IMG/VR virus record: IMGVR_UViG_3300012204_000007
Location: 1-64,000 of that record
Length of the DNA stretch: 64,000 bases
From: a virus
Direction: 5' to 3' (one strand)
The translations under genes were made by a program, and so were the position numbers. Below, piece by piece: positions 4,502-18,416 of this stretch (position 1 is its first letter; the number at the start of each line of letters is the position of its first letter). The notes beneath the pieces are model-generated. The model had not been told where the DNA came from. It was given only the letters and a program-made list of their open reading frames with translations, and made no database searches.

Positions 4502-4948
4502 ATGAAAATTTGTCAATCATGCGGCGTAAGTAAGCCACTCTCAGAATTTCACAAACGTACTCGCGCTCTAGATGGGTTGCAAACCAGATGTAAAATATGC
4601 AATCGAGAACAGCGTAAGGCTTATTATAAGACCGCTCATGGTAGAGATAAAAATGATGTGACCGGCAAACGGTGGCTGACCCAGATGCGCAGGAAGGTTT
4701 TTGAATATCTTTTGGAGCATCCTTGTGTTGATTGCGGTGAAGCAGACCCGGTCGTATTAGAGTTTGACCATCGTGATAATGTGGAAAAATTTGCAGCGGT
4801 TAGTAATATGTTTAAAATGTATGGCTGGACAAGAATTTCAGAAGAGATTGCTAAATGTGACGTACGATGTGCAAACTGTCATAAGAGGCGTACTGCTAAA
4901 CAATTTGCATGGTCTAAGTTAGCATGGTATGATGGTATAGAAAAATAA
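4502..4948 (+). CDS. HNH homing endonuclease
   Basis: 148 aa. N-terminal zinc finger (CQSC...CKIC, residues 4-35) followed by an HNH core: CVDCGEADPVVLEFDHRD, then KCDVRCANCHKRRT at about 120-135, giving two CxxC pairs that hold the fold and the DH/H catalytic residues. It stands alone between tRNA genes with its own leaderless promoter, typical of mobile endonuclease genes in phages. Confidence 0.85.
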   Translation: MKICQSCGVSKPLSEFHKRTRALDGLQTRCKICNREQRKAYYKTAHGRDKNDVTGKRWLTQMRRKVFEYLLEHPCVDCGEADPVVLEFDHRDNVEKFAAVSNMFKMYGWTRISEEIAKCDVRCANCHKRRTAKQFAWSKLAWYDGIEK

Positions 4949-5500: not shown

Positions 5501-5573
5501 GGGTAATGCGCAGGTGGGGACTTGCGGTGGTGTGAAGTACCACTTTGACTCGGTTCGACTCCGAGATTACCCA
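5501..5573 (+). tRNA. tRNA-Phe (GAA)
   Basis: Acceptor GGGTAAT/ATTACCC; GTGGT-GTGAAGT-ACCAC gives GAA; T arm CTCGG-TTCGACT-CCGAG. No encoded CCA. Confidence 0.9.
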
Positions 5574-5787: not shown

Positions 5788-5864
5788 CCGGGTGTAATGG
5801 CGCTGGCTACGAACCAGTAGTGCATAACGGAATGAAAATGAGGGTTCGAATCCCTTCACCCGGT
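5788..5864 (+). tRNA. tRNA-Arg (ACG)-like, D arm missing
   Basis: Acceptor CCGGGTG/CACCCGG and T loop TTCGAAT are good, but GCTGG-CTACGAA-CCAGT (ACG) comes only seven bases after the acceptor, where the D arm belongs, and about 22 unpaired bases follow. Total length is normal (77). Either a rearranged pseudo-tRNA or a fold I cannot resolve. Confidence 0.45.
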
Positions 5865-11029: not shown

Positions 11030-11058
11030 TTGACATACCGGCCCCGGTAGTGTAGAGT
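11030..11058 (+). promoter_or_regulatory. Promoter of large ncRNA (shared leader type)
   Basis: TTGACA 11030-11035, 17 nt, TAGAGT 11053-11058, then AGTACTTGTTGG. The same promoter plus ACTTGTTGG leader recurs at 17223, 24150 and 30477. Confidence 0.8.
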
Positions 11059-11064
11059 AGTACT

Positions 11065-11545
11065 TGTTGGTGGGCGAAGCCGCACCAACCAAATTATTCT
11101 AAAAATAAATAATGAAACAACGTCGTCTGGGACGATATGGTTGGGTGACCAACTGAAAGGAGGGCTGGCAGCCTTCCACCTAGCAATAGGCAAATCCAGA
11201 CAAGGCTAGTCTTTAGGCAATCGTTACGGCGGTTGTAGGAGAACAAAGCAGCCCCGTCCGAGAGCATCTGCGGAGGACACCCGGTAGGGTAAAAGGGAAT
11301 ACATGCGAAACTCCAATAGACTAAGTGAGATACTAAGTGCGAGGCTGCAACCAAGTGCGGGTATCATGAAACCATAGTGGGGATAGACATATCCTGACAA
11401 CGGTCACAGATTGTGAGTAGTCGCAAGCGAAAGCATATGATGGAGTGAAGCATTTTGTAATCCAAAAGGTTACGGAACTTCATGGAGAAGCACTTCGTCT
11501 GCCAAACCCCTAGCGGGACGGGTTGCCCCGCTCTTTTAATATGGA
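11065..11545 (+). ncRNA. Large structured non-coding RNA (GOLLD/ROOL-like candidate)
   Basis: About 480 nt between a strong promoter and a strong intrinsic terminator, without a convincing coding frame. It starts with a GTTGGTG...CACCAAC hairpin; other elements include GGAGGGCT-GGC-AGCCTTCC, CCTA-GCAA-TAGG (GNRA loop) and a long-range GCAGCC/GGCTGC pairing. Known giant ornate RNAs of phages (GOLLD, ROOL) also sit in tRNA clusters. Class membership is inference; only the promoter, terminator and stems are seen. Confidence 0.6.
11512..11538 (+). terminator. Intrinsic terminator of ncRNA
   Basis: AGCGGG ACGGGTTGC CCCGCT followed by CTTTT. Confidence 0.7.
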
Positions 11546-11561
11546 TATACTAAAGCAAAAG

Positions 11562-11860
11562 ACTTCTCCCGTCACAAGTCGATAGCGTCTTAATGGCTGA
11601 CCGTAAGGAATCAGCCCACGAGGAAGGCCGCAAGCCCAATCGTGTTGGTGTGCAAGTAGTGCAGTTTAGAGATTTAGCGGTCTCTCTACGAAACAAAAGC
11701 AGCCGAGTAGACTGTGATGTAAAGGGTGCTGGCCTTAAGCCAGTAGACGCGGTTCGTACGGTAGGAATACCGTGGATACGTTGGGAATCAATAATCCAAC
11801 CAAAGCGAATCATGTATGGGTTGAGTCCAGGCCCACACAACGCTCCCTCGGGAGCGCAAG
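11562..11860 (+). ncRNA. Second structured RNA segment leading into a tRNA-like end
   Basis: After TTGCCC-17 nt-TATACT (about 11533-11561) comes roughly 300 nt without a convincing gene but full of perfect hairpins: CC-GTAA-GG inside GGCTG/CAGCC, CTGGC-CTTAA-GCCAG, ACGGTA-GGAA-TACCGT, CGCTCC-CTCG-GGAGCG. GNRA-type loops recur. It runs into a tRNA-Met-like element at 11861. Either a separate RNA or the 3' domain of the RNA that starts at 11065. Confidence 0.5.
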
Positions 11861-11925
11861 CCGGTGGCAGGTTGCAAAGATTCTCTCATAAGGAATCTGA
11901 CTAGGGTTCGTTTCCCTTCGCCGGT
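11861..11925 (+). tRNA. tRNA-Met (CAT)-like, truncated D arm
   Basis: Acceptor CCGGTGG/TCGCCGG; ATTCT-CTCATAA-GGAAT gives CAT; T-arm-like AGGG-TTCGTTT-CCCT. Only about 12 nt separate acceptor and anticodon arm, so the D arm is vestigial. It forms the 3' end of the structured RNA segment. Confidence 0.45.
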
Positions 11926-11927
11926 AC

Positions 11928-12003
11928 AGCGCGGTGGTCTAGTTCGGTCTAGGACATGAGGCTCATAATCTCAAGGACGCCGGTTCGAATCCGGCCTGCG
12001 CAA
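11928..12003 (+). tRNA. tRNA-Met (CAT), possibly initiator
   Basis: Acceptor pairs 2-7 GCGCGG/CTGCGC with an unpaired A1-A72, as initiator tRNAs lack a 1-72 pair; TGAGG-CTCATAA-TCTCA gives CAT; T arm GCCGG-TTCGAAT-CCGGC. It could instead be elongator Met or Ile(k2C). Confidence 0.85.
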
Positions 12004-12027
12004 CTACTAACAACAGTTAGGAAAAAT

Positions 12028-12567
12028 ATGCAGACCCAATGGAGCAAGACACGACATGGTGGTCTGCGCCGCACGCGGGTACCTCAGAAGTATGATGAAG
12101 CGAAAGCGGAGTCAGGGCCAGAGGACCTCCGTCACACGGAGGCAGTCGTTGGTTCGAATCCATCCCCGCGTACTTTTATTATAAAGTTTAAAGAAAGATT
12201 GGGACTTCCCACCTGTCCATATCTTGTAAGATGGAGATTGGAAACAAAGTGGGGTTCAGTCAGATTGCATCATTGGCTTGGTCCAGACGACAGTAGAAAC
12301 TTTCACGACCATCCCTGGGACTTTGTCACCTTTGTTCTAAAGGGAGGATATACAGATAGCAACCCGAACGGCAAGCAGCATCTAAAGGCACCAGCAGTTC
12401 AATATCGCTCAGCCATTCATCAACACACAGTTTTTCCTGATAGCAAAGGCGCATGGACCTTGGTCTTTACTGGACCGAAGATTAGGCCGTGGGGATTTTG
12501 GGTGACCGGTAAATTCAAGAAGGCTAATAAATACTTTCTTTCATACGGTCATCATCCGTGTGATTGA
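12028..12567 (+). CDS. Cupin-like phage protein (start uncertain)
   Basis: Up to 179 aa. The conserved part begins near KERLGLPTCPYLVRW and holds LHHWLGPDD, FHDHPWDF and VLKGGYTD, the His-rich core of small cupin-like proteins found in actinophages. The ATG 12028 has AGGAAAAA upstream, but this frame then reads through tRNA-Val (12073-12172). A non-ATG start after the tRNA would give about 130 aa. Function unknown. Confidence 0.6.
   Translation: MQTQWSKTRHGGLRRTRVPQKYDEAKAESGPEDLRHTEAVVGSNPSPRTFIIKFKERLGLPTCPYLVRWRLETKWGSVRLHHWLGPDDSRNFHDHPWDFVTFVLKGGYTDSNPNGKQHLKAPAVQYRSAIHQHTVFPDSKGAWTLVFTGPKIRPWGFWVTGKFKKANKYFLSYGHHPCD
12073..12172 (+). tRNA. tRNA-Val (CAC) with expanded D loop
   Basis: Acceptor ACGCGGG/CCCGCGT; CCTCC-GTCACAC-GGAGG gives CAC; T loop TTCGAAT. 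D stem CCTC/GAGG encloses about 38 nt, including a GC-GAAA-GC hairpin, roughly 27 nt longer than normal. It lies inside an open reading frame. Confidence 0.7.
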
Positions 12568-15624: not shown

Positions 15625-16013
15625 GGGGCCGTCATGGTTTCGCCTCGGTGCAAAATGAGATAGGTACGCAACCAGAGTTAAGATGTGCCAGACTCTTAAA
15701 ACGGGTATATCAACAATAAATGCTAACTATTCTGTAGTTGCAGAGGCTGAGGCAATTCTTGCCGAGGCCGCTCTAGTCACTGCGTGACTGGTGGGGTTCT
15801 AGATACCTTATTAACCAAATCTAGATAGCAATAACCGACAGTGCGACGGCGGTATAGAAATAGATTTGTATTGAAGGCACAATTGAAAATGCTATTGGTA
15901 TAGGTGGTCTCCCTAGTCACCAGCATAGAGCGAAGACTTAATGACCAAAATGGTTGTGATACGGATTTATTTTCTGAGTATTGAGTACGGGAGTTCGAAT
16001 CTCCCCGGCTCCA
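15625..16013 (+). ncRNA. ssrA: tmRNA (transfer-messenger RNA)
   Basis: 389 nt. 5' end GGGGCCGTCATGGTTTCG pairs through GGGGCCG with 3' CGGCTCC; the T arm GGGAG-TTCGAAT-CTCCC precedes the 3' end. A resume codon GCT at 15722 opens a 21-codon tag that begins ANYSVV, ends EAALVTA and stops at TGA 15785-15787. It rescues stalled ribosomes and tags nascent chains. The tag does not end in the usual LAA, so protease routing of tagged proteins may differ from the host's. Confidence 0.88.
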
Positions 16014-16030
16014 CAGATTAAGGAGGACCA

Positions 16031-17711: not shown

Positions 17712-17877
17712 GTGGCACTGGGAGCCACTGGTTTAATACTAGGCCGCTCAGGGGCATCCTGAGAAGCCTGGCAGCAATCAAGGGCAGTAGTTGGAAGGTA
17801 TCGCAGGTTCGATTCCTGCAATAGAGTGGTTCTTGGCTCGACGGAGCGCCAGAGGGTTCGACTCCCTCACTGTTCAC
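17712..17877 (+). other. Intergenic stretch with two orphan T arms
   Basis: GCAGG-TTCGATT-CCTGC (about 17803) and GAGGG-TTCGACT-CCCTC (about 17853) are perfect T arms, but neither finds a 5' acceptor partner. CTCAGG-GGCAT-CCTGAG is another hairpin. Probably decayed tRNA genes. Confidence 0.45.
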
Positions 17878-18341: not shown

Positions 18342-18416
18342 GAAAAGATAATGGAAAACGACGGTTCGAGCCCGTGTAAATGGTATCCGGTGAGGTTCGA
18401 TTCCTCAATCTTTTCT
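18342..18416 (+). tRNA. tRNA-like element (possible Ser CGA)
   Basis: GAAAAGAT pairs with ATCTTTTC and a T arm TGAGG-TTCGATT-CCTCA is present. ACGG-TTCGAGC-CCGT could be an anticodon arm (CGA) or a second T arm. The D arm is missing. Probably a fused or decayed tRNA. Confidence 0.4.

Follow-up and report, generated by a model that had tools for sequence, protein, structure and literature searches.

What does a stretch of about 900 bp encode when it lies within a viral tRNA array and appears to hold no protein gene? This question is raised by positions 11030-11925 of the window, by which we mean the whole 64,000-nucleotide stretch that was analysed (positions 1 to 64,000 of IMG/VR record IMGVR_UViG_3300012204_000007). 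A sequence-only reading had proposed a large ornate RNA of the GOLLD or ROOL type, either as a new or divergent member or as two RNAs in tandem. The features of the locus are as follows, with the basis of each in brackets.

11030-11058, plus strand: promoter TTGACA-17-TAGAGT of the GOLLD transcript (promoter scan)
11065-11437, plus strand: GOLLD 5' domain, with an approximate start predicted from the promoter (nhmmer matches, covariation)
11438-11834, plus strand: GOLLD 3' domain, full RF02032 model (cmscan, alignment, covariation)
11503-11550, plus strand: variable linker with the hairpin 11511-11537 (RF02032 alignment, relatives, hairpin scan)
11841-11856, plus strand: additional hairpin of 6 bp, CGCTCC-CTCG-GGAGCG, separating the tRNA-like element from the GOLLD end (hairpin scan)
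11860-11926, plus strand: tRNA-like element with a CAU anticodon (tRNA-like fold)
11928-12004, plus strand: tRNA-Met(CAT), the next gene of the array (ARAGORN, Rfam)

Identity of the RNA

A cmscan search of the window with Rfam 15 gave a match to RF02032 (GOLLD) at 11438-11834 on the plus strand, with a score of 192.5 bits and an E-value of 1e-52, against a curated cut-off of 150 bits. The match spans model positions 1-416, i.e. the whole model, which covers only the conserved 3' region of GOLLD. No match to ROOL was found in the window in the Rfam scan, either at the curated threshold or among the weak matches, and of the two families proposed GOLLD is thus the one borne out. GOLLD and the tmRNA are the only large RNAs that Rfam 15 detected in the window, and the virus record of 120,830 bases carries a single GOLLD copy.

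The locus also shows the other traits by which GOLLD is recognized. The distance from the predicted start to the end of the RF02032 model is about 770 nt, where the family has a total of about 800 nt; GOLLD occurs in phages or prophages near tRNAs, and this copy lies in a virus record, with 34 tRNAs and one tmRNA in the window; and a less conserved, structured 5' half and a variable linker are both present. It is virtually certain that the region at 11030-11925 is a GOLLD RNA, and a GOLLD RNA gene within a phage tRNA array is very probably the best explanation of the locus as a whole. The copy is new and ordinary for the known family. It is a regular member and not a strongly divergent one.

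The view that the region contains no credible gene was upheld. The three longest open reading frames tested inside it matched no PHROG or Pfam family, and base-pair covariation accompanied by insertions and deletions runs across the region. Small "hypothetical protein" genes are annotated within the GOLLD 5' half in three deposited mycobacteriophage records (L273, L276, and L278), upstream of the 3' domain, and are probably spurious.

As to the surroundings, no close relative of the window's first 20 kb was present in the phage collection, and an RIIA-like protein further along the window is about 33% identical to its Streptomyces phage counterparts, e.g. that of Muntaha. The phage-encoded tmRNA lies at 15625-16014 and has the tag peptide AEAEAILAEAALVTA. 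A protein similar to a PHROG named cysteine dioxygenase is encoded at 12205-12567, immediately after tRNA-Met.

Fold, covariation, and the 5' half

The region had been described as holding at least ten perfect hairpins, several with GNRA loops, and the counts agree. Between 11030 and 11925, 11 perfect hairpins have a stem of 5 bp or more, compared with 3.4 in dinucleotide shuffles (maximum of 200 shuffles, 9), and 3 GNRA hairpins compared with 0.2. Folding of the whole RNA gave a z-score of −4.5 (20 shuffles).

With the whole region as the nhmmer query, mycobacteriophage GOLLDs aligned with most of it, including the 5' half. L272, L274, and L279 extend into the 5' half of the window copy from about 11128 on, with E-values of 1e-25 to 1e-30 (7e-30 for L274). 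Judged by these alignments, the variable 5' half (about 11065-11437) also belongs to GOLLD. The window thus supplies a further actinophage-like GOLLD with a near full-length alignment, which helps to delimit the variable 5' half.

Lack of covariation in homologs had been named as one observation that would speak against a structured RNA. Alignments of 14 relatives for the 5' half and 16 for the 3' half were examined for compensatory changes, counted where both sides of a pair had changed. Such changes were found in 24 of the 56 pairs of the 5' consensus fold and in 66 of the 93 pairs of the 3' consensus fold. They are many and are distributed over most helices. The covariation score was 0.440 for the 5' half (0.194 shuffled, at most 0.078 slid) and 0.566 for the 3' half (0.216 shuffled, at most 0.105 slid), and none of 500 shuffles equalled the real alignments on any measure in either half; the consensus folds were built from the same alignments, so that support for the fold is somewhat favoured. 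These results demonstrate that the GOLLD fold in the window is under selection.

Promoter

The consensus promoter noticed from the sequence was confirmed as TTGACA-17-TAGAGT at 11030-11058. The window contains 43 copies of the motif TTGACN{17,19}TANNNT where 7.2 are expected, and none of 100 shuffles had as many, which suggests that 11030-11058 is probably of the phage's own promoter type. Examples of the phage-wide form TTGACA-17/18-TANNNT lie at 11030, 30477, 42973, and 49490. The nearest relative, L298, has a promoter-like site at an almost identical offset.

The promoter spacer at 11030-11058 carries the inverted repeat TACCGG/CCGGTA, and several other promoter copies likewise hold an inverted repeat in the spacer, which is possibly an operator. 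A split tRNA interrupted by GOLLD, with TACCGGC at 11036 as its 5' part and GCCGGTA as its 3' part, was considered and ruled out, because TACCGGC sits in the promoter spacer and a full 7-bp acceptor stem forms locally.

The linker hairpin

A strong internal terminator had been placed near 480 nt. A 6-bp hairpin followed by TCTTTT is indeed present at 11511-11537, but it is not strong: its folding energy is −9.8 kcal/mol, and its absence from the output of the terminator scan indicates a weak-to-moderate terminator at most.

This hairpin bears on the proposal of two tandem RNAs, in which an independent 5' RNA would stop at 11511-11537 and a second RNA would start beyond it. The TCTTTT directly after the hairpin and a weak promoter-like match within it (11523-11551, 9/12) are what such an arrangement would have. 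However, the hairpin falls inside the RF02032 model, between the paired halves of the model, in a linker that varies freely among relatives; the terminator is modest, and relatives have tRNAs or A/U-rich sequence at the same place. In GOLLD a variable linker separates the 5' domain from the 3' domain, and this layout accounts for the position of the "terminator", so that tandem RNAs are not needed, and we regard them as very improbable. Within a single GOLLD transcript, some partial termination at the hairpin is conceivable.

The linkers of GOLLD relatives often contain a tRNA, or a tRNA with a shortened acceptor stem, where the window has a hairpin. In the linker-embedded tRNAs of L273, L277, L278, L281, and L298 the acceptor stem tends to be partly or wholly missing, unlike that of the tRNAs after GOLLD. 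PMC12286853 also reports that tRNAs sometimes occur in the GOLLD linker, and that the env-38 linker is seen by cryo-EM to be disordered within the cage.

The tRNA-like element at the 3' end

The tRNA-Met-like fold said to end the region does exist: it occupies 11860-11926, and its D-arm is truncated. The true tRNA-Met starts at 11928. All seven acceptor pairs are formed (two of them G-U), as are four of the five T-stem pairs, and a 9-nt stub replaces the D-arm. The anticodon loop is CUCAUAA and the T-loop UUCGUUU. ARAGORN did not call the element, and it gave no RF00005 match up to an E-value of 5. The T-loop is without A58, normally present there, and tRNA enzymes might recognize the element less well as a result. 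Pairing of the T-loop with the GOLLD RNA was rejected, since the complementary AAACGAA is absent from that RNA.

One reading is that the element is a decaying tRNA-Met pseudogene of the array, unrelated to GOLLD maturation. The Streptomyces phage Annadreamy has two tRNA-Met genes in tandem, with the first of which the element aligns, and such pairs occur in Streptomyces phage arrays that have no GOLLD directly upstream. Moreover, ARAGORN also passed over four other tRNA-like elements in the array of the window, each with a good acceptor stem and T-arm (5501-5572, 5788-5863, 17824-17875, and 18343-18414), so that the GOLLD end is not the only place with a decayed tRNA. The element at 17824 is just 52 nt long, and that at 18343 apparently has two T-arm-like hairpins. 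A pseudogene is a serious possibility, if somewhat short of an even chance; against it stands what occupies the same place in independent GOLLD loci.

The 3' slot in other GOLLD loci

Loci were collected by a motif scan of IMG/VR, by a second, actinophage-type motif, and from mycobacteriophages, and were clustered at 85% identity, giving 68 non-redundant clusters among the matches listed, most of them chosen by one exact motif. A first viral pattern, AAAGCAAAAGNCTTC, yielded no usable GOLLD loci. The pattern GTGGATA in bacterial genomes gave 30 matches, about as many as chance is estimated to give; of these, the Mycobacterium match (L249) alone was used. All five loci checked with the covariance model were GOLLD.

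The content of the 3' slot was classified with our own script, starting at +60 of the anchor motif, with controls starting at +200 and +300. Among the matches listed, the 68 clusters divided into 21 with a tRNA, 7 with a tRNA-like element (including the window), 27 with an intrinsic terminator, and 13 with neither, whereas the control stretches of the same clusters held 3 and 4 tRNAs. The slot tRNAs among these matches have at least 12 identities, Met being the commonest. This variety of tRNAs and reduced tRNA-like elements in independent loci argues against a chance pseudogene, as does the frequency with which terminators fill the slot where tRNAs do not.

The first downstream tRNA lies within 25 nt in 21 of the 32 tRNA-bearing loci among the matches listed. 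Ordinary gaps between tRNAs in the same loci are often equally short (137 of 336, or 41%, at most 25 nt), so adjacency may simply be operon packing, which gives part of the effect. In several loci with a gap above 25 nt (the window, L278, L272, L284, L124, and L220) a reduced tRNA-like element fills the slot.

Some details of individual loci were also noted. A minimal tRNA-like element follows GOLLD at L124:5434-5530 and at the same place in L146, L180, L187, L190, and L220; in loci of the L124 type it seemingly consists of the acceptor stem and T-arm alone. The T-loop UUCGUUU is common to the window and several loci of the L124 group. For L290, the sequence had suggested that a tmRNA follows GOLLD, but neither ARAGORN nor Rfam supported this.

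A second alternative is that the element at 11860-11926 remains attached as a functional part of the RNA, e.g. as a tRNA mimic displayed by a cage. Linker-embedded tRNAs offer a precedent, both in the relatives collected here and in PMC12286853. Yet the element of the window keeps the full 7-bp acceptor stem and the T-arm, whereas linker tRNAs tend to have shortened acceptor stems: nine linker tRNAs had 3-6 contiguous acceptor pairs, whereas those in the 3' slot had 3-9, in most cases 6-8 (Mann-Whitney p 0.005, from a simple and approximate pair counter). An attached mimic is therefore unlikely.

A further idea, which we consider less likely than not, is that the GOLLD family has a dedicated 3' slot, occupied in some members by a terminator and in others by a tRNA, or a worn-down mimic of one, retained as a cleavage signal; the cage-forming RNA would then borrow the tRNA processing machinery. 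In the window the D-arm would have been lost and the signal kept. No mention of a regular 3' tRNA or tRNA-like slot was found in the passages on GOLLD that were consulted. The slot is possibly the sole new point of the window GOLLD.

Proposed maturation

The acceptor stem and T-arm are the parts of a tRNA that RNase P reads. From the anatomy of the locus and from comparison with its relatives, the following course appears most likely. Transcription would begin near 11065 from the promoter at 11030-11058 and, meeting no terminator at the GOLLD end, would continue into the tRNA genes. RNase P would cut in front of the tRNA-like element at 11860-11926, around which tRNA 3' enzymes would also act, and cleavage would release the GOLLD RNA, about 770-795 nt long, as well as the tRNA-Met downstream. 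As to the 3' end itself, the chances are evenly balanced that it is set by tRNA-type processing. A regular slot for a tRNA, tRNA-like element, or terminator gives a concrete idea of how the GOLLD 3' end forms, and of why GOLLD travels with tRNA arrays.

The released RNA would then probably multimerise into a cage like the 14-mer of env-38, with the linker hairpin inside. By analogy with the family, cage-like assembly of the window GOLLD is somewhat to be expected. From what is known of the family, the cage would act during lytic growth, perhaps holding tRNAs or ribosome parts. Very few natural RNAs are known to build RNA-only cages; GOLLD is among them, and the cages of its best-studied member are hollow.

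Comparison with known systems

ROOL resembles the RNA of the window in being a large phage RNA near tRNAs, and differs in that its model finds no match in the window. GOLLD env-38 (PMC12286853) shares the Rfam family, the layout, and a similar length (833 nt) with the window copy. That source describes env-38 as a 14-mer cage solved by cryo-EM, and reports that GOLLD expression rises during phage lysis and that GOLLD binds ribosomes in pull-down assays.

The nearest relative is L298 (IMG/VR contig 3300036652_001273), which was found through a neighbouring protein. Like the window, it has a large tRNA array, a downstream protein that is 75% identical, and a GOLLD (176.7 bits). Unlike the window, it has a linker that contains a tRNA body, and its GOLLD, which ends at 4828, is followed by an intact tRNA-Lys at 4841.

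The GOLLDs of mycobacteriophages (Reyvirus, Bongovirus, and prophiGD54-2) align with the window copy in both the 5' and 3' domains, at about 65-69% mean column identity. They share with it a tRNA array, a tRNA directly after the RNA, and a variable linker, and several have a tmRNA nearby. In comparison with them, the window copy is distinguished by its own promoter, a linker free of tRNA, and a 3' tRNA-like element with a reduced D-arm.
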